From a virus: a stretch of DNA of 24,334 nt. The translations under genes and the position numbers were made by a program. Under the pieces are notes generated by a model that was not told where the DNA came from, ran no database searches, and saw nothing but the letters and a program-made list of their open reading frames with translations. Shown piece by piece: positions 14,871-23,495 of the stretch. Position 1 is the stretch's first letter. Each line of letters opens with the position of its first letter. The stretch covers positions 1 to 24,334 of IMG/VR virus record IMGVR_UViG_3300048834_001380; one strand, 5' to 3'.

Positions 14871-16865
14871 GTGGCCGACACGCGGGGCATCCGGGCTGGT
14901 CGGGCGTTCGTCGAACTCGGCGTGAGCGACAAGCTCACGGCCGGGCTTCGTCGCGCCCAGAAGCAGCTCGAGGCCTTCGGCGCTGGCCTGCGGTCCGTCG
15001 GCACCCGGCTCGCGGGGATCGGCGCGACAGCGGTCGCGGCGCTGCTCGGCACGGCGAAGGCCTTCTCTGACACGGGCGACATGCTCGACAAGATGAGCCA
15101 GCGGACCGGCGTGAGCGTGGAGGCCCTGTCCGAGCTTGGGTTCGCGGCCGACCTCTCGGGCACCGACCTGGAAGCCCTGGAGGCCGGGCTCCGCAACATG
15201 CAGCGGACGCTCACGGGCGCGGCGCAAGGCTCGGCATCCGCGGGCGACGCCCTCGGGCGGCTTTGTCTGACCGCCGCCCAACTAGCGGGCCTCGCACCGG
15301 ATGAACAGTTCAAGGTCCTCGCGGAACGCATCTCGCAGGTGCGCGACCCCGCCCTCCGCGCTGCGCTGGCGATGGAGGTCTTCGGCAAGGCCGGAACGAA
15401 GCTTCTGCCGCTTATGGCGGATGGCGCGGCGGGCATCGAGGCGATGCAGCAAGAAGCCCGGCGCCTCGGCCTCACCGTCAGCACCGAGACCGCCCGCGAC
15501 GCCGCCGCGCTGAACGATGCCCTCGGCACCCTCTGGAAGGTGCTCAAGCAGGGCGTGTTCACGATCGGCGGCGCGCTCGCGCCCACGCTTAAGGACCTCG
15601 CCGAGCGGATCACCCGCATCGTCGTGAGCGTCACCACCTGGATCAAGGCCAACCGCGAGACGGTCGTGTGGGCGCTGAAGATCGCCGCCGCCGTCGCCGT
15701 GGCGGGCATCGCCATCATGGCGCTGGGGTACATCGTCACCGGCATCGGAGCGACCCTCGGCATCGTCGCGGGCGTGATCGGTGGCATCGGAACCGCCTTC
15801 AGCCTGATCGGAGCCGCCATCGCGGCGATCCTGCCGCCGGTCTGGCTGGCGATCGCCGCGATCGTGGCGCTCGGCGGCGTGCTCATCGTCACCACGGGCG
15901 TCGGCGGGGAGGCCCTCGCCTGGCTCGGCGAACAGTTCACGCGCCTGCGCGACTGGGTGACAAAGGTCGTCGGCGGTATCTCAGACGCCCTCGCGGCGGG
16001 CGACATCGCGCTGGCCGCCGAGATCCTGTGGCTATCCCTGAAGGTGGTCTGGCAGCAGGGCGTCGCCGCGCTGAACAAGGTTTGGCTGGAGGCCAAGGAG
16101 TTCTTCGTCTCCACCGCCTATGGCATGTGGTACGGGGCGCTGGCCGCCGCGGAGATCGTCTTCCACGCGCTCGAGATCGCCTGGATCGAGACCACGTCGT
16201 TCCTTTCCAAGACCTGGACCAACTTCACCACCGGCTTCCAGCAGGTGTGGGAGTCGGCATCGTCGTGGGTCGCCAAGCGGATGCTGGAGATCCAGGGGCT
16301 GTTCGACTCCGGGCTCGACGTGGACGCCGCGAAGAGGGCCGTCGATGATCAACTCGAATCCCGCCTTGCGGAACTGGAGAGCGCGGCCCAGCGGCAAGTG
16401 GCCGAGCGCGAGGGACAGCGCGAGGCCGAGCGCGAGCAAGCCGCCGCCCTGCACGAGGCAACCCTGGCCGGGATCGGTCGTGACTTTGAGGAGGCCCAGG
16501 CCGCGCTCAAGGCGAACACGGAGGCCGGGCTCGCGGAGTCGCAATCGGCGCTGGATGCCGCGAAGCAGAAGCTCGCCGACGCCATCGAGCAGGCCCGTCA
16601 GAAGCGCGAAGCGGCTGACGCTGAGCGCGGGCCCGGGCGCACGCCCCGCGACCTGATGGCCGAGTTCGAGGACCGCCTCGCCGGGCTCGGAGACGTCATT
16701 GGCAAGGGAATCAGCGTGCGCGGGACGTTCAACGTGCGCGCGGCGCAGGGCCTGGAGTCAGACGGAGGGGCCGCCGAGCGCACCGCCCGGGCCACCGAGC
16801 AGACCGCCAAGCACACCAAGCGCCTGGCCGACGCCGCGCATAGCGGCGGGCTGACGTTCGCCTAA
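14871..16865 (+). CDS. Tail tape measure protein
   Basis: 664 residues, GTG start three bases after the previous stop. The N-terminal part (SDKLTAGLRRAQKQLEAFGA then GDMLDKMSQRTGVSVEALSE) is characteristic of tape measure proteins. There is a long hydrophobic Ala/Gly/Ile-rich region at about 265-344 and a charged helical, probably coiled-coil region at about 490-590 (ERDGQ-type Glu/Arg/Ala repeats). The C-terminus is Ala/Thr/Lys-rich. Tape measure length scales with tail length at roughly 0.15 nm per residue, so this suggests a tail near 100 nm. It is short compared with many siphophage tape measures, which often exceed 1000 residues. Confidence 0.9.
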   Translation: MADTRGIRAGRAFVELGVSDKLTAGLRRAQKQLEAFGAGLRSVGTRLAGIGATAVAALLGTAKAFSDTGDMLDKMSQRTGVSVEALSELGFAADLSGTDLEALEAGLRNMQRTLTGAAQGSASAGDALGRLCLTAAQLAGLAPDEQFKVLAERISQVRDPALRAALAMEVFGKAGTKLLPLMADGAAGIEAMQQEARRLGLTVSTETARDAAALNDALGTLWKVLKQGVFTIGGALAPTLKDLAERITRIVVSVTTWIKANRETVVWALKIAAAVAVAGIAIMALGYIVTGIGATLGIVAGVIGGIGTAFSLIGAAIAAILPPVWLAIAAIVALGGVLIVTTGVGGEALAWLGEQFTRLRDWVTKVVGGISDALAAGDIALAAEILWLSLKVVWQQGVAALNKVWLEAKEFFVSTAYGMWYGALAAAEIVFHALEIAWIETTSFLSKTWTNFTTGFQQVWESASSWVAKRMLEIQGLFDSGLDVDAAKRAVDDQLESRLAELESAAQRQVAEREGQREAEREQAAALHEATLAGIGRDFEEAQAALKANTEAGLAESQSALDAAKQKLADAIEQARQKREAADAERGPGRTPRDLMAEFEDRLAGLGDVIGKGISVRGTFNVRAAQGLESDGGAAERTARATEQTAKHTKRLADAAHSGGLTFA

Positions 16866-16877
16866 GGAGACACGTTC

Positions 16878-17687
16878 GTGGCGATCACGGTGACGGAGAA
16901 GTTCGAGAGCCGCAAGTCCACCAAGGGCGACAATCCCTCGGCGGAGTTGGTCTACACCGTGCGCGGGACCAATGACGACCTCGCGGCCCGCAACGCGGCC
17001 GAGACGACAAGCCCCGCGACCTACGACGGCCAGCCCCGGCAATCCACCTCCGTCGAGCCCGTCGGCGATGAGCTGTGGGAGGCCGTGGTCCGGTACGGGA
17101 AGGCCCAAGGAGGCTCGCTCCCCGAGCCGGGCGAGAGCATCTTCTCCTTCGACACCGGCGGCGGCACGCAGCACATCACCCAGAGCAAGGAAACGGTGTC
17201 GTCGCACGCGCCCTCGGGCTCGTCGCCACCTGACTTCGGCGGCGCAATCGGTGTCACCGCCGACGGCGTCGAGGGCGTGGACATCACCGTCCCGGTCTTT
17301 CAGTTCTCCGAGACGCACTACTTCACCAACGACCAGGTCACGCCGTCGTACAAGGGCACGCTCTTTACGCTCACGGGCAAGGTGAACTCTGGCGCGTTCA
17401 AGGGGTTTCAGGCGGGCGAGGTCCTGTTCCTCGGCGCATCGGGCGCGCGGCGCGGCACCGATCCCGACGACGACTGGGAGATCACCTTCCGGTTCGCGGC
17501 CAGCCCCAACGCGAGCGGCATCTCGGTCGGCGACATCAGCGGCATCAGCAAGAAGGGGTGGGAGTACCTGTGGGTGCGGTACGCCGACCAGGAAGACACC
17601 GGATCGCACGCGATCGTGAAGCGCCCAGTCGCGGCGTATGTCGAGCGCGTGTACGACGAGGGCAGCTTCGCCGGACTGGGAATCTGA
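16878..17687 (+). CDS. Putative distal tail/baseplate protein
   Basis: 269 residues, GTG start with AAGGAG upstream. The protein is soluble and beta-rich. Its first half is repeated-strand sequence (AELVYTVRGTNDDLAARN, ATYDGQPRQSTSVEPVG) and its second half contains HYFTNDQVTPSYKGTLFTLTG and ISKKGWEYLWVRYADQEDTG. No named family is recognised with confidence. The position just after the tape measure is where distal tail (Dit-like) and baseplate proteins are encoded. There is no signal peptide or membrane segment, so a virion role is the best inference. Confidence 0.62.
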   Translation: MAITVTEKFESRKSTKGDNPSAELVYTVRGTNDDLAARNAAETTSPATYDGQPRQSTSVEPVGDELWEAVVRYGKAQGGSLPEPGESIFSFDTGGGTQHITQSKETVSSHAPSGSSPPDFGGAIGVTADGVEGVDITVPVFQFSETHYFTNDQVTPSYKGTLFTLTGKVNSGAFKGFQAGEVLFLGASGARRGTDPDDDWEITFRFAASPNASGISVGDISGISKKGWEYLWVRYADQEDTGSHAIVKRPVAAYVERVYDEGSFAGLGI

Positions 17688-17705
17688 CCCCCCACGAGGA
17701 GACGC

Positions 17706-18734
17706 ATGGGCGACCTGTTCCGCAAAGTCCGATCGGGCCAACCGCTCCGCATCCCCGCGGCGGCGTACAACGCCTTCGTTGACGCGGCGGTCGATCTGCG
17801 CCGACGGGAGCAGAATGCCAATGCGGGGCCCGCGCTGGAGCCGGCGCAGCGCGGCATCGTGTTGGTCCGCAACGACTCAGACGATGACATCGAGCCGTAC
17901 CACGCGCTCGCGATCACCGGCGTTCTGGTTCAGCCCGACAACGAGGACCAGGAGCGCACGTTCCACAGCCGCACGCCGCTGACGGGCGAGATCGCAACCG
18001 ACGAGTCGCCGTCGCTCTCGTTCGTGCTGGCCCTCCAGCCGATCAAGTCGGGCGAACTCGGCCGCTGCGTGCTCACGGGCGTCACGCCGGCGCGGGTCTA
18101 CATCACGAACGAGACGGATACGACCTGCGAGCTGGCTCCCGAGGAGACCATGCTGGCCAGCACGCCCATGGGCGGCATCCCGATCCTGTGGAAGGAGGAG
18201 GGCACCGGCGAGAAGTGGGCCGTCATCGAGATGGGTCAGCCGTCGCCCGGCCGCGTCACGGCGATCCTCGGGGCAGCGCAGCCTATTCCCACTGAGAACA
18301 ACCGCTGGCGCTACCCGTGGGTCGAGGCCCGGATCGACGGCGATCCCGGCAGCGACACCTACCTGCGCTATGTCCCCGTGCCCGAAGGGCTGTCCTCGCA
18401 GCTCCCCGGCGGCGGCGAGGACCCGACGCGGCTGGCGATCAACCGCTTCGAGGCCCATCACATGAACGACTTCGACCCCGGCTCGGGCTTCGGCGGCCTG
18501 CTGGGGTTGGGTCCGGTCTGTGAGTTGCCCGGCGTGCTGCCGAAGTGCCCGCCCGCGCGGTCGCTCAAGCCCAAGCTCGTGCCGATACCGGAGGGCGTCT
18601 GCGTGCAGCTCACCTGTGAGCGCAACAGCAAGGGCAGGCCGGTGTGGGTGTTCGAGGCGATGAGCCTGATTGAGATCGCCGACCCGGCCGACGAGAACCG
18701 CAAGTTCAACATCTACATCGAGGGAGGCGCATGA
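17706..18734 (+). CDS. Putative tail-tip structural protein of unknown family
   Basis: 342 residues, ATG 17706 with GAGGAG upstream. It starts GDLFRKVRSGQPLRIPAAAY and has a helical lead-in (NAFVDAAVDLRRREQNA). A beta-rich body follows (RGIVLVRNDSDDDIEPYHAL, GRCVLTGVTPARVYITNE), consistent with a trimeric or baseplate-type structural protein. The C-terminal part has a Gly/Leu-rich loop and several Cys (CELPGVLPKCPPARS, CVQLTCERNSKG) that might pair. No family is identified. It lies in the late operon and overlaps the methyltransferase start by four bases, linking virion and modification genes translationally. Confidence 0.62.
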   Translation: MGDLFRKVRSGQPLRIPAAAYNAFVDAAVDLRRREQNANAGPALEPAQRGIVLVRNDSDDDIEPYHALAITGVLVQPDNEDQERTFHSRTPLTGEIATDESPSLSFVLALQPIKSGELGRCVLTGVTPARVYITNETDTTCELAPEETMLASTPMGGIPILWKEEGTGEKWAVIEMGQPSPGRVTAILGAAQPIPTENNRWRYPWVEARIDGDPGSDTYLRYVPVPEGLSSQLPGGGEDPTRLAINRFEAHHMNDFDPGSGFGGLLGLGPVCELPGVLPKCPPARSLKPKLVPIPEGVCVQLTCERNSKGRPVWVFEAMSLIEIADPADENRKFNIYIEGGA

Positions 18735-19339
18735 GCACGACCTCCTTGACCAAGCCCACACTCGATATCCGGCGCGAGCACGAGCGGAAAAAGTACGTCG
18801 CGTTGGCCGCGCGGCCAGCCGCGCCCGGGACTGGGTATGGCGCAACCAACCACGGCGCGGCCGCGATCGCGCTCGTGCAGCGCCTGAAGCCCCGCTTCAT
18901 CGTGGACTTCGGGTGCGGGCGGAATGACTTCATCGGCGCGTTGCGGCGGGTCGGGATCGACGGGCTCGGCATCGACTTCGCCTTCCCCGAAGCGGACATC
19001 CCGCGGGCGATGCACAAGACCGGTCTGCTCGACGGCGTGGCCGACGTGGTGACAAGCTTCGATGCCCTGGAGCACCTTCTCCCGGAGGATGTGGACGCGG
19101 TGCTCGCCGAGATGCGGCGGCTGGCACGCCCGCGGGGTCACTTCGTGTTCTCGATCTGCACGCGTCCGAGCCGGACAACCGTCGCCGGCGAGGGACTGCA
19201 CCCCACCGTGCGGCCGCTGGCGTGGTGGCTGGATCGCATCGGCCAGGTCGGCACGGTGACGACGCCAAAGGCGGAGGGCCGCTACATCGTCGGGCGGTTC
19301 GCGGCCAAGGAGGGCCGGGGGGGGTGCGGCTGTGCGTGA
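18731..19339 (+). CDS. Class I SAM-dependent methyltransferase-like protein
   Basis: 202 residues, ATGA overlap with the structural gene before it. The Rossmann motif I is IVDFGCGRNDF. Later come GLGIDF (acidic ribose-binding position), VTSFDALEHLLPEDVDAVL and ARPRGHFVFS, the usual order of type-11 methyltransferases. The C-terminus ends in a GGCGCA stretch. It has no DNA-methylase DPPY motif, so a small molecule, sugar or protein is the likely substrate. Being coupled to a DUF115-like gene and a Ser-rich tail protein, it might finish a glycan, but that is inference. The last eight bases overlap the next gene. Confidence 0.8.
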   Translation: MSTTSLTKPTLDIRREHERKKYVALAARPAAPGTGYGATNHGAAAIALVQRLKPRFIVDFGCGRNDFIGALRRVGIDGLGIDFAFPEADIPRAMHKTGLLDGVADVVTSFDALEHLLPEDVDAVLAEMRRLARPRGHFVFSICTRPSRTTVAGEGLHPTVRPLAWWLDRIGQVGTVTTPKAEGRYIVGRFAAKEGRGGCGCA

Positions 19340-20234
19340 GAACCAGTCGGACATCGCGGCGCTTCAGGCGGGACTCAAGGCACGGAAGCCCGCGCGGGAT
19401 GGCCTGCGCCTCTACACAGCCGACTTCGACTCGGTCTCGCTCGCCGGGTTCTATCGCGGGCGTTCGGCGTTCCTGATCCTGTCGGGGCCGTCGCTCACGC
19501 AGGTGGACCTGATGCAGCTCAACAAGCGCGGCATCGTCACGATGGGGGTGAACAACTCCTGGTCCGTGCATCGCCCGACGCTGTGGACCTGCGTGGACGA
19601 TCCTGGCCGCTTCATCGACACCGGCTGGAAGGATCCCGGCATCCTGAAGTTCGTGCCGACGTGCGCGTGGGACAAGCGCCTCCGCATCCAGAATCCCGAC
19701 GGCACGATGCGTGCCAGCGCATTCAAGGTCCACCAGATGCCCAGCGTGCTGTTGTTCCGCCGCGCCGATCATTTCGATCATGCGCGGTTCCTCACGGGCG
19801 ACTCCGTGCCCTGGGGCAACGACGCCAAGCACGCGGATTCTCTCGGCATCACCGGCAAGCGGAGCGTCATGCTTGTCGCCCTGCGCCTCCTGCATCACCT
19901 CGGCTTCGGCACGGTGTACCTGCTCGGCTGCGACTTCAAGATGGCGACCGACCGCAAGTATGCCTTCGAGGAGCACCGCGCCCCCAACGCCATCCGGCAC
20001 AACAACGTCCTGTACGACTCCCTGGCCCGCCGCTTCGAGGCCCTGCGGCCGCACTTTGACAAGCACCGCTTCCGCGTCATCAACTGCTCGCCCGGCAGTG
20101 AGCTCCAGGCGTTCGAGCGCATGGACTTCGCCGCGGCGGTGAAGGCCGCATCCACTGAGTGCGGCAAGCCCGTGAGCACGCAGGGCTGGTACGAACCCAA
20201 TCCGAAGCCGACCCCGCAGGAGGCCGCCCGATGA
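19332..20234 (+). CDS. DUF115/MptE-like or sialyltransferase-like protein
   Basis: 300 residues, GTG start overlapping the methyltransferase. The pattern SAFLILSGPSLTQVDLMQLN then GIVTMGVNNSW, LWTCVDDPGRF and YLLGCDFKMATDRKY resembles proteins of the DUF115/MptE-like group and Cst-type sialyltransferases. This set includes Maf flagellin glycosyltransferases that modify Ser/Thr. The GPS and LLGCDF motifs are placed as in those folds. The C-terminal tail is polar with several Pro. Enzymatic activity is not provable from sequence, but an NDP- or CMP-sugar transferase is the leading idea. It lies immediately before a tail protein with dense serine repeats. Confidence 0.68.
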   Translation: MRENQSDIAALQAGLKARKPARDGLRLYTADFDSVSLAGFYRGRSAFLILSGPSLTQVDLMQLNKRGIVTMGVNNSWSVHRPTLWTCVDDPGRFIDTGWKDPGILKFVPTCAWDKRLRIQNPDGTMRASAFKVHQMPSVLLFRRADHFDHARFLTGDSVPWGNDAKHADSLGITGKRSVMLVALRLLHHLGFGTVYLLGCDFKMATDRKYAFEEHRAPNAIRHNNVLYDSLARRFEALRPHFDKHRFRVINCSPGSELQAFERMDFAAAVKAASTECGKPVSTQGWYEPNPKPTPQEAAR

Positions 20235-21586
20235 GCGACGGCCCGACCCGATACTATTTATACATCCCCGTCTGGGCGACGGGCCGTCCGCCCACGGGTG
20301 GCGGGTCGAGCAACTACTCCACGCCGTCGGGTTCGACGCCCGAGAGCACCTACTCGACGCCGACAAGCACGCCGAGCATGCCGTCGAGCTATTCGACGAC
20401 GGGCGATGTCATCTACACGACCGGCTCCGGCGGAACGCCCACGCTCACGTTCTACACCACCGGCGCCTTCACCAGCAACACTTCGGGGACGACGCACACG
20501 CCGTCGAGCAGCGGGTCGAGCGACTCCATGTCCTCAGGATCGACGGGTTCGAGCAGCGGCACGCCGACATCATCGTCAGGCTCGATGTCGTCCAGCGGGG
20601 GATCTTCGTCGGGATCATCGTCGAGCGGGTCCTCCAGCAGCGGGTCTGGCTCTTCGAGCGGATCGGGGTCATCGGGTTCGGGCAGTAGCGGACAAAGCAG
20701 CGGAATGTCCAGCGGCGCTTCATCCGGCGCCAGCAGCGGCATGAGTTCCGGAGCCTCGTCCGGCGCATCCTCCGGAGGATCATCCGGCGGCGGCTCGTCT
20801 GGTGGAGGATCGTCCGGCGGCGGTGGTTCGAGCGGCGGTGGTTCCGGCCCCGGTGGGTCCGGTCCAGGCGGCTCGGGTCCGGGCGGCAGCGGGCCGGGTT
20901 CCGGCCCCGGCAGCAACTGCCTCCTCTTTGGGACGCTCGTACGCCTCGAGGACGGCCGCCTTACGCCCATCGAGAACCTCAAGCCGGGCGACCGCGTGGC
21001 ATCCATCCAGGTGCCCGGCCTGGAGGTCGATGTCCCCTACCGCGCCCAGTACAACTGGCTCTCGCACCACGGCCTGCACGGCGCAACGCCCGTCGCTGCC
21101 CGCGTCGCCAGCATCCGCCTCGGCGAGCACCACGGCTTCATCGTCATCAACCGCCGCCTGAAGGCGACGCCCGAGCACCCGTTCATGATCCGCCGCGGCG
21201 ACGAGTGGGGCTTCGCGTCCGCGGAGTTCATCCAGGCAGGCGACTTCCTGATCGACGAGCACATGAACGAGGAAGAAGTCGATTCGGTCCTCCGTATCGA
21301 CGCCCCGACACGCACCGTGGCCATCCACATTCCCGGTACGAACACGCTTCTGGCCGAGGGAGTGTGGGTCCACAACGACATGCCCGCTACGGCCCACAGC
21401 GGCTCGAGCGGATCATCCTCCGGATCGGGCTCTGGTTCCGGTTCGGGATCGGGGTCAGGGTCAGGATCGATGTCTGGATCAACCAGCGGGTCGTCCAGCA
21501 GCGGATCGTCGTCCCGCAGCAAGTCTAGCGGGTCGTCCTCGTTCTCGACCTCTGGGTCCACGTCCGGCAGCGGTCTGGCAGCATGA
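20231..21586 (+). CDS. Ser/Gly-rich tail protein with internal Hint (intein-like) domain
   Basis: 451 residues from ATG 20231 (AGGAGG seven bases upstream, overlapping the previous stop). Residues 1 to ~95 are Thr/Ser/Pro-rich with short YSTP and TTG patterns. Residues ~96-228 are almost pure Ser/Gly with some Pro. Residues 230-382 form a Hint domain: Cys230 opens block A (CLLFGTLVRLEDG), block B has T313-P-E-H316, and it ends GVWVHN with H381-N382. At 153 residues it has no homing endonuclease. The residue after Asn382 is Asp, not Cys, Ser or Thr, so ordinary protein splicing is unlikely and cleavage is expected. A second Ser/Gly tract (390-451) follows. The position at the end of the tail genes suggests a fibre or adhesin; that and the self-processing are inferred. 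Confidence 0.8.
   Translation: MSDGPTRYYLYIPVWATGRPPTGGGSSNYSTPSGSTPESTYSTPTSTPSMPSSYSTTGDVIYTTGSGGTPTLTFYTTGAFTSNTSGTTHTPSSSGSSDSMSSGSTGSSSGTPTSSSGSMSSSGGSSSGSSSSGSSSSGSGSSSGSGSSGSGSSGQSSGMSSGASSGASSGMSSGASSGASSGGSSGGGSSGGGSSGGGGSSGGGSGPGGSGPGGSGPGGSGPGSGPGSNCLLFGTLVRLEDGRLTPIENLKPGDRVASIQVPGLEVDVPYRAQYNWLSHHGLHGATPVAARVASIRLGEHHGFIVINRRLKATPEHPFMIRRGDEWGFASAEFIQAGDFLIDEHMNEEEVDSVLRIDAPTRTVAIHIPGTNTLLAEGVWVHNDMPATAHSGSSGSSSGSGSGSGSGSGSGSGSMSGSTSGSSSSGSSSRSKSSGSSSFSTSGSTSGSGLAA
20510..20916 (+). repeat. Low-complexity Ser/Gly-coding repeat tract
   Basis: The DNA is made of short degenerate repeats of the type AGCGGGTCG and TCCGGCGG coding Ser-Ser-Gly and Gly-Gly-Ser units, ending in several GGTCCGGG-type (GPGGS) units. 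A similar tract lies at 21400-21580. Such tracts can change length by slippage. Antisense frames here stay open only because of the repetition. Confidence 0.7.
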
Positions 21587-21639
21587 GCGGATCGAGCAGC
21601 CCGTCCGGCGGTGGGTCAGGGTCGGTGATCGAGCAGTAG
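21583..21639 (+). other. Tiny 18-codon frame overlapping the fibre stop
   Basis: ATG 21583 overlaps the tail protein stop (ATGA) and reads MSGSSSPSGGGSGSVIEQ before a TAG. It keeps the Ser/Gly composition of the upstream gene in the -1 frame, so it may be the leftover of a slippage event or a reading frame reached by a shift. A functional peptide is not supported beyond the overlap. The rest of the gap to 21667 shows no clear terminator. Confidence 0.35.
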
Positions 21640-21667
21640 CTGACTCAGAGCGCGGTCTCACGAGAAG

Positions 21668-22549: not shown

Positions 22550-22620
22550 CGATGAGACATTGAGACTTCTAGCGGTTTCGTCGCTGCTACACGCTCCCTT
22601 CTGGTCTCACGGGCTCATCG
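22550..22620. repeat. Imperfect inverted repeat upstream of the ATPase gene
   Basis: The left arm at 22550-22566 reads CGATGAGACATTGAGAC and the right arm at 22604-22620 reads GTCTCACGGGCTCATCG, 14 of 17 positions complementary and separated by 37 bases. The left arm also contains an 8-bp tandem unit, TGAGACAT-TGAGACTT (22553-22568). The right arm lies in the 3' end of the repeat-protein gene. The site may be an operator or an RNA stem controlling the ATPase gene. Confidence 0.55.
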
Positions 22621-23495
22621 CCCTGCGACTGACCATCGGGGGATTCAGCACTCTCCGCCCGCGAGTCTCGCGTGGCTTTCGAGCGCCGCCCTCTGTGCTC
22701 GGCGGGATCAAGGCCCGCCGCGCAGATCGCATCGTCCCAACTTCCCAAACATCGCTTTGCCGCACCGTACAAGCTCGAGTCGTCCCGAGAAACAGCCCAG
22801 GCGTTGATCCTCAACCCCTCGCGCAGCCGTTCTCGGATGGCCTCGACGATCCGTTCCTTGCCCCACGGTGCCCGCGCCTCGCCCGCAGACGCATCCCGCC
22901 GTGACGTCTGCCTGCTTCGGGAACGCTTCGATCGTCGAGGCGGCAGGTCGGCGGATCGGGGGTCTATGCCCGCAGCGGTCAGCGCAGCGTGCCAGCTGCC
23001 GAAGAACCGCTGGCCCGACTCAACGAGGGATCGGGGCTCGATTAGCCTCGCCACCAGTGGCTCTCCCCGGAGTGCACGCGTCAGAATCGCCTCGATGACC
23101 CGTTCCCGGGTCCACGGAACGACGCGCTGGAGCTTGGTCGGATCGACACCCGCCGCGAGCACGGCCTTGGACCAGGAGCCGAAGTGCCGGCGAGCCGCGG
23201 ATACGAGGTTGTGGTAGCGTTGGTCAATCTGGTCAGTTGTCAGCGGCCGGCGGCGGCGTGAGATCTGCCGGATTTTCGCCAGGATCTTCGCCGGTGACCA
23301 GCGCTCCCACGTCATGACTCGCTCGGGCGGGATGCCCGCCGCGACGATCGCGTTCCGCCATGATCCGAATATCCGGCGCGCCGCCGAGTACAGCAAGGGA
23401 TCGACGCCCTCTCCGCTGGCGTTCAATGCGAGTCCATCGGCCTCCCGCTCAAGGATGTAGCGGAGGATCCTTTCTCGTGTCCACCTGGTGCGCAT
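22587..23495 (-). CDS. Four-repeat DNA-binding protein (homing-endonuclease-associated repeats)
   Basis: 302 residues built from four diverged ~55-60 residue repeats at about 3-58, 62-123, 125-183 and 213-265. Each starts with a W-T/S-x-E/K-x-I helix and ends AARRxFGSWxxAxxAAG(I/V/L)DP, for example SAARRIFGSWRNAIVAAGI and GAAKRCLGSWDDAICAAGL. This is the pattern of homing-endonuclease-associated (HNR) repeats, three-helix DNA-binding units. An Arg/Ser-rich linker separates repeats three and four, and the C-terminus is polar and probably disordered. No HNH or GIY-YIG nuclease motif is present, so this looks like a sequence-specific binder. It starts two bases after the RepB/ParB-like gene and is co-transcribed with it. 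Confidence 0.8.
   Translation of the reverse strand: MRTRWTRERILRYILEREADGLALNASGEGVDPLLYSAARRIFGSWRNAIVAAGIPPERVMTWERWSPAKILAKIRQISRRRRPLTTDQIDQRYHNLVSAARRHFGSWSKAVLAAGVDPTKLQRVVPWTRERVIEAILTRALRGEPLVARLIEPRSLVESGQRFFGSWHAALTAAGIDPRSADLPPRRSKRSRSRQTSRRDASAGEARAPWGKERIVEAIRERLREGLRINAWAVSRDDSSLYGAAKRCLGSWDDAICAAGLDPAEHRGRRSKATRDSRAESAESPDGQSQGDEPVRPEGSV

Follow-up and report, generated by a model that had tools for sequence, protein, structure and literature searches.

What reaction, if any, would a Hint domain carry out when it lies between two Ser/Gly tracts of a putative phage tail protein and is followed by Asp rather than by Cys, Ser, or Thr? This question is raised by a gene at positions 20231..21586 of a 24,334-nucleotide stretch of viral DNA (hereafter, the window). 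The gene is on the plus strand, as are its parts and the upstream genes of its operon described below. It encodes a Ser/Gly-rich protein of 451 aa (plus the stop codon) with an internal Hint domain; its ATG at 20231 overlaps the stop codon of the upstream glycosyltransferase gene (ATGA) and is preceded, 7 bases before the ATG, by AGGAGG (20218-20223). No Rfam match indicative of an RNA element was found.

The protein begins with a conserved N-terminal module, MSDGPTRYYLYIPVWATG (20231..20284), which is common to Hint-bearing and Hint-less alleles and is possibly a docking peptide. It is followed by a Ser/Gly/Thr/Pro tract ending in GPGG repeats (20285..20914), which leads to the N-terminal junction Asn229/Cys230 (20915..20920). 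The Hint domain itself spans the 153 residues from C230 to N382 (20918..21376) and includes the block B sequence T313-P-E-H316 (21167..21178), identified from the translation and the relatives. The C-terminal junction, H381-N382/D383 (21371..21379), opens a Ser/Gly tract of 69 aa (21377..21583) that hosts a conserved lysine motif, K431-SSGSSSFST (21521..21550), our candidate thioester acceptor. An initial annotation made from the DNA letters had named Cys230, T313-H316, and H381-N382 followed by Asp383, as well as Ser/Gly tracts on both flanks of the domain. Translation of 20231-21586 placed all of these residues at their expected positions and bore out the flanking tracts, with Ser and Gly together accounting for 48% of the protein. 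In addition, C230 is the sole Cys of the 451-aa protein, K431 is its sole Lys outside the Hint domain, and the Ser/Gly flanks gave no match in a Pfam scan. Compared with its relatives, the window copy is frame-shifted near the 3' end (window 21560-21640), such that the usual C-terminus of the relatives, GGGSGSV.EQ, is in the next frame and ends ~50 bases past 21586. This shift may be genuine or may stem from an assembly error; it lies past the lysine motif, which is unaffected.

The gene is the last of a tail operon whose genes are closely packed, with overlapping starts and stops, and it is translationally coupled to the preceding gene. Upstream of it lie a tail tape measure gene (14871..16865), two conserved genes encoding proteins of 269 and 342 aa (16878..18734), a small-molecule-type methyltransferase gene kept in the same cassette (18731..19339), and a glycosyltransferase-like gene (19332..20234; weak MptE-like/DUF115 match, and PHROG alpha-2,3-sialyltransferase with E 1e-11). 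With few exceptions, this order (i.e., tape measure, 269 aa, 342 aa, methyltransferase, glycosyltransferase, Hint gene) recurs wherever the contig extends across it, and the glycosyltransferase-like gene is the immediate upstream neighbour in almost all relatives with contig sequence at that site. Since the 269- and 342-aa genes have no Pfam, PHROG, or PDB-sequence match, and no family or fold match puts the Ser/Gly Hint protein itself in the tail, the tail assignment rests on its position behind the tape measure in a packed gene run. It is thus from gene order only that we infer a tail protein. Elsewhere in the window, a ParB-like domain is fused to a DNA methyltransferase (1012-2454), and an HNH_repeat protein with repeated HNH-associated units is encoded on the minus strand (22587-23495), flanked by genes for an AAA ATPase and a ParB-like protein.

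A further glycosyltransferase gene of the DXD type (Gly_transf_sug, E 2.5e-5; L054:7889-8506) follows the Ser/Gly gene in the groups whose protein has the FIEGG C-terminus (~30 loci). Together with the upstream glycosyltransferase and the methyltransferase, it gives a hint that the Ser/Gly protein is glycosylated.

Relatives of the protein were found in IMG/VR contigs and at 62 places in bacterial genomes, nearly all of these genomes being labelled Phycisphaerales, Phycisphaeraceae, or other Planctomycetota; the copies in bacterial genomes look like prophages of these hosts. The chromosome CP054186.1 carries three copies (L098, L150, and L151) representing two Hint subtypes, and other Phycisphaeraceae assemblies also host several copies. 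A few loci are labelled otherwise (Dehalococcoidia, Cyanobacteria, Leptolyngbya, Rhizobiaceae, and Vicinamibacteraceae MAGs), and these labels may be binning errors.

When the window sequence was searched alone against Pfam, its best matches were PT-HINT (PF07591; E 6e-4) and Hint_2 (PF13403; E 1e-3), both below the curated cut-offs. The Hint call is therefore weak from one sequence and becomes firm once relatives are added. Indeed, a profile of 24 relatives searched against PDB sequences retrieved as its best match the BIL domain of Clostridium thermocellum (2lwy, E 3e-5), and AlphaFold2, supplied with 73 family members, predicted a Hint fold with a pLDDT of 93-98 across most of the domain. 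Foldseek also ranked 2lwy at the top for the first model (E 1.6e-8), with BUBL BIL2 next. VIA-align of a better model against BUBL BIL2 (6y75) gave a Z value of 20.6 and 1.5 A over 137 residues, as compared with ~19 for DnaB mini-inteins, 19.1 for 2lwy, and 16.9-17.2 for Hedgehog. As these values lie close together, BUBL BIL2 is the nearest structure by a small margin only. A Z of at least 8 was reached by 84-85 of ~995 PDB chains, and those listed are inteins, BILs, and Hedgehog. Both the profile search and the structure prediction thus yielded what the initial annotation had expected, and its horseshoe-shaped beta fold places the domain in the Hint superfamily.

In the same prediction, which covered the Hint domain and the sequence behind it, the C-terminal tract is disordered (pLDDT 34-45), and the word "fibre" used for the protein in the initial annotation is a description only. 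This disorder also bears on a Hedgehog-like transfer, in which the thioester would join the N-terminal tract to an external partner, be it a second virion protein, a host-surface sugar or lipid, or a small nucleophile. Hint domains are known to act in this way in Hedgehog, and glycosyltransferase and methyltransferase genes adjoin the locus. No acceptor-recognition domain is present, however, and only the disordered tract follows the Hint domain, which makes such a transfer quite unlikely in our view.

To gauge conservation of the active site, we compared 96 distinct sequences of the domain, with identities as low as 53%, taken from IMG/VR contigs and Phycisphaerales genomes. The first Cys, the block B Thr and His, and the penultimate His are invariant (96/96), and the terminal Asn is found in 94 of the 96, the exceptions being one His and one Asp. 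Position -1 is Asn in 95/96, a residue that in inteins generally may make the thioester chemistry slower. Asp occupies +1 in 92 of the 95 relatives having a residue there; the other C-termini have Thr (L062 and L065) or Tyr (L145), and neither Cys nor Ser was found at +1 among the relatives' domain sequences. Around the domain, the flanks vary in both length and sequence, with heads of 131-245 aa and tails of 16-130 aa. The retention of the catalytic residues across 96 distinct sequences takes the pattern beyond chance. The bacterial-intein-like domain proposed at the outset is thus real and conserved, with all the residues for the acyl shift and Asn cyclisation present and the +1 nucleophile absent. 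On these sequence features (i.e., Cys1, block B Thr/His, C-terminal His-Asn, no +1 nucleophile, and hypervariable surroundings), we class it as A-type-BIL-like, and the conservation pattern is what an active domain of that type would look like.

One could instead regard the domain as a selfish mini-intein that has degenerated, or as a structural remnant that is dead and performs no reaction. It has neither a homing endonuclease nor a +1 nucleophile, and Hint-less alleles do occur (see below). Against this, the catalytic residues are invariant or nearly so, the median pairwise dN/dS is 0.34 (3749 pairs with dS 0.1-1), the domain has been kept in twelve lineages, and a motif outside the domain is conserved along with it. 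We consider an inert element very improbable, and we infer that the Ser/Gly Hint protein cleaves or ligates.

Known A-type BILs, which have a His-Asn end and no +1 nucleophile, mostly cleave, and they are able to splice through attack of an amine on the thioester (PMC4031507, PMC7664689, PMC7765530). The domain could accordingly be confined to cleavage: thioester hydrolysis and Asn cyclisation would yield the N-terminal tract, the Hint domain, and the C-terminal tract as separate pieces. The domain would then be a switch for maturation that sets the C-terminal tract free, and the lysine motif would serve elsewhere. The near-constant Asp at +1 (92/95) is consistent with this possibility, as is the predominance of cleavage products in published BIL assays (PMC4031507, PMC7664689). 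Cleavage by itself does not account for a single Lys motif that persists while the rest of the tail scrambles and that is absent along with the Hint domain.

Because Ser/Gly tracts misalign, which masked the Lys conservation in a MAFFT alignment, we counted the lysine motif alignment-free in 93 distinct complete tails. Of these, 89 contain K-[SH]-S-G-S-S, mostly with Met or Phe as the next residue, whereas composition-preserving shuffles of the tails averaged 1.6 and never exceeded 6. The motif is situated 23-58 residues after the terminal Asn (49 for K431 of the window, counted from N382), and apart from it, the tail sequence scrambles. Its Lys is the only one of the tail in 55/93 tails. The segment before the Hint domain contains no Cys in any of 78 distinct relatives and no Lys in 73 of them. 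Among the four tails lacking the motif, two have it with one change. The tail of L065 is 16 residues long and includes EKSSGAG, and L115 is the only locus with a Lys-free tail; none of the five neighbouring phage genes was found around L115.

The codons of the motif vary synonymously, including switches between AGC and TCN for serine, while the residues remain fixed, and all twelve Hint clusters (<75% identity) retain the tail Lys. Shared ancestry alone is therefore a poor explanation for the motif. AlphaFold2, run with the 73 sequences, left the lysine motif disordered and undocked at Cys230, with no contact predicted between them, and the motif could have another purpose, such as binding.

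Five complete alleles at the same locus (L052, L053, L054, L057, and L058) have neither the Hint domain nor the lysine motif. They keep the N-terminal module, the GPGG repeats, and a C-terminal module, FIEGG.EGVPPA.WQ, that is shared with one Hint-bearing group, and a replacement segment with TLTIGTSSDSFTGT-type sequence is found instead of a clean excision. In the glycosyltransferase tree, they form one clade nested among the Hint-bearing alleles, which probably arose by loss; a further search for independent Hint-less alleles returned the same clade only. Given this single clade, the joint absence of the Hint domain and the motif counts as one event: the protein can manage without the Hint domain, and the domain and motif went together once.

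These alleles also bear on what the Hint domain does. Since their N- and C-terminal modules are on one chain, separation of the two is not universally needed, which argues against cleavage only, a reading that we regard as rather unlikely overall while giving it real weight. A continuous chain that functions in relatives is what BIL splicing without a nucleophile would produce: after Asn cyclisation, the alpha-amine of D383 would attack the thioester, the N- and C-terminal tracts would be joined by a peptide bond, and the Hint domain would leave a chain like that of the Hint-less allele. This mechanism has been proposed for A-type BILs (PMC4031507). In the Hint-less alleles, however, the domain is replaced by another segment and not cleanly excised, the lysine motif would be unaccounted for, and the terminal Asn is absent at two complete loci, L139 and L141 (HHD and HDN). 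We therefore deem splicing through D383 unlikely. Cys1 and the lysine motif are retained at both of these loci, as though cleavage at the C-terminal junction could be dispensed with.

We tentatively favour, at somewhat less than even confidence, a reaction in which a thioester at Cys230 is resolved by an amine, with K431 as the first candidate, and cyclisation of Asn382 frees an active A-type-BIL-like Hint domain. More specifically, Cys230 would attack the N229-C230 bond with the help of T313 and H316, so that the N-terminal half would be held on the thioester. Because none of Cys, Ser, or Thr occupies +1, ordinary trans-esterification would not follow; an amine would instead resolve the thioester, and the side chain of K431, from the protein's own tail or a neighbouring copy, would be the first candidate, giving an isopeptide-linked product such as that reported for BUBL BIL2. 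Cyclisation of Asn382, assisted by H381, would cut the C-terminal junction and free the Hint domain. This would leave a Ser/Gly strand that is anchored through the N-terminal module and covalently branched or cross-linked to the C-terminal tract.

Capture by the K431 amine is ranked first because the fold is nearest to BIL2, the flanks offer no thiol, and one downstream lysine is kept. The providers of the BUBL BIL2 structure describe its splicing as linking the C-terminus of the upstream segment to a lysine side chain through an isopeptide bond (PMC8616854). The initial annotation had raised coupling of the thioester to something else but did not mention the lysine motif, which now supplies a specific candidate for that idea. 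Weighing against the K431 reading are the absence of docking in AlphaFold2, the single-clade nature of the joint absence, the closeness of the BIL2 and DnaB Z values, a possible other purpose of the lysine motif, and the Asn at -1.

We postulate, as a doubtful yet serious possibility, that the Hint domain is a built-in, ATP-free isopeptide ligase. It would move the N-terminal strand from Cys230 to the conserved lysine of the C-terminal tract, its own or a neighbour's, to build a virion-borne mesh of branched or cross-linked Ser/Gly strands, with Asn cyclisation releasing the Hint domain.

In the literature that we found, isopeptide formation by a BIL is reported for one ciliate protein only. 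If the proposed reaction holds, a large phage family would offer the same fold with an N-terminal flank nearly free of competing thiols and amines and with one conserved lysine, making the reaction directly testable in E. coli. It would also point to covalent self-assembly in a phage appendage, provide a compact ligation tag, and give a concrete job to BIL domains, whose biological role is mostly unclear. The carrier of such a Hint protein is, moreover, probably a phage of little-studied Planctomycetes bacteria.

Among known systems, class 1 and class 3 inteins share the Hint fold and most of the catalytic residues with this domain. Class 1 was rejected because +1 is D383 (Asp in 92/95 relatives), with no +1 Cys/Ser and no homing endonuclease, and class 3, which is defined by a block F Cys (WCT motif) and by the lack of Cys/Ser at position 1, because C230 is the only Cys of the protein. 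A pretoxin HINT, suggested by the PT-HINT match, was rejected as well, since no toxin or other folded domain follows the Hint domain, only a Ser/Gly tract without a Pfam match. The C. thermocellum BIL (2lwy) resembles the phage domain in its Hint fold, Cys1, block B TxxH, C-terminal His-Asn, lack of a +1 nucleophile, and hypervariable flanks. Unlike A-type BILs, the phage domain lies in a tail operon, is embedded in low-complexity Ser/Gly tracts, and has a conserved -1 Asn, a +1 Asp, and a conserved downstream Lys motif; its reaction is predicted from sequence. The closest structural match is BIL2 of BUBL1 from Tetrahymena thermophila (6y75, 6tmm), which is reported to make a lysine isopeptide with a downstream segment (PMC8616854). 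The ciliate BIL2 is flanked by ubiquitin-like domains, whereas the phage domain is flanked by Ser/Gly tracts, and for the latter the isopeptide is proposed by analogy.

Our literature search returned no paper describing Hint domains in phage tails or connecting Hint with isopeptides in phages. Hint domains do lie behind low-complexity or collagen-like tail-type sequence in other phages (Erwinia Alexandra gp112, Y3, and Yoloswag, Dickeya AD1, Yersinia fHe-Yen9-02, Alcaligenes Afa-NA1, and NCTB), those of Erwinia, Dickeya, and Yersinia being jumbo myophages. Two members scanned with Pfam gave Collagen at E 1.5e-13 or better plus a weak Hint match, and the records name these proteins tail or virion structural, one noting "contains intein domain". 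Proteins named Collagen and Fibronectin type III likewise yielded Hint domains in a viral fold search. The combination of Hint with phage tail-type proteins is thus recurrent and annotated, yet apparently unstudied. These proteins differ from the Ser/Gly family in that they are only ~26-30% identical to it, their flank is not Ser/Gly, and the Hint domain is at the very C-terminus, with ~10-12 residues after His-Asn (fewer in NCTB). Their +1 residue (L028, L026, L159-L166) is mostly Thr (Erwinia, Dickeya), and also Val (Yersinia), Met (Afa-NA1, Sen-NF), or Ala. Each end that was read after His-Asn has at least one Lys, in a small sample of related phages. Relative to these known phage Hint proteins, the new part is the conserved lysine together with its Ser/Gly setting.
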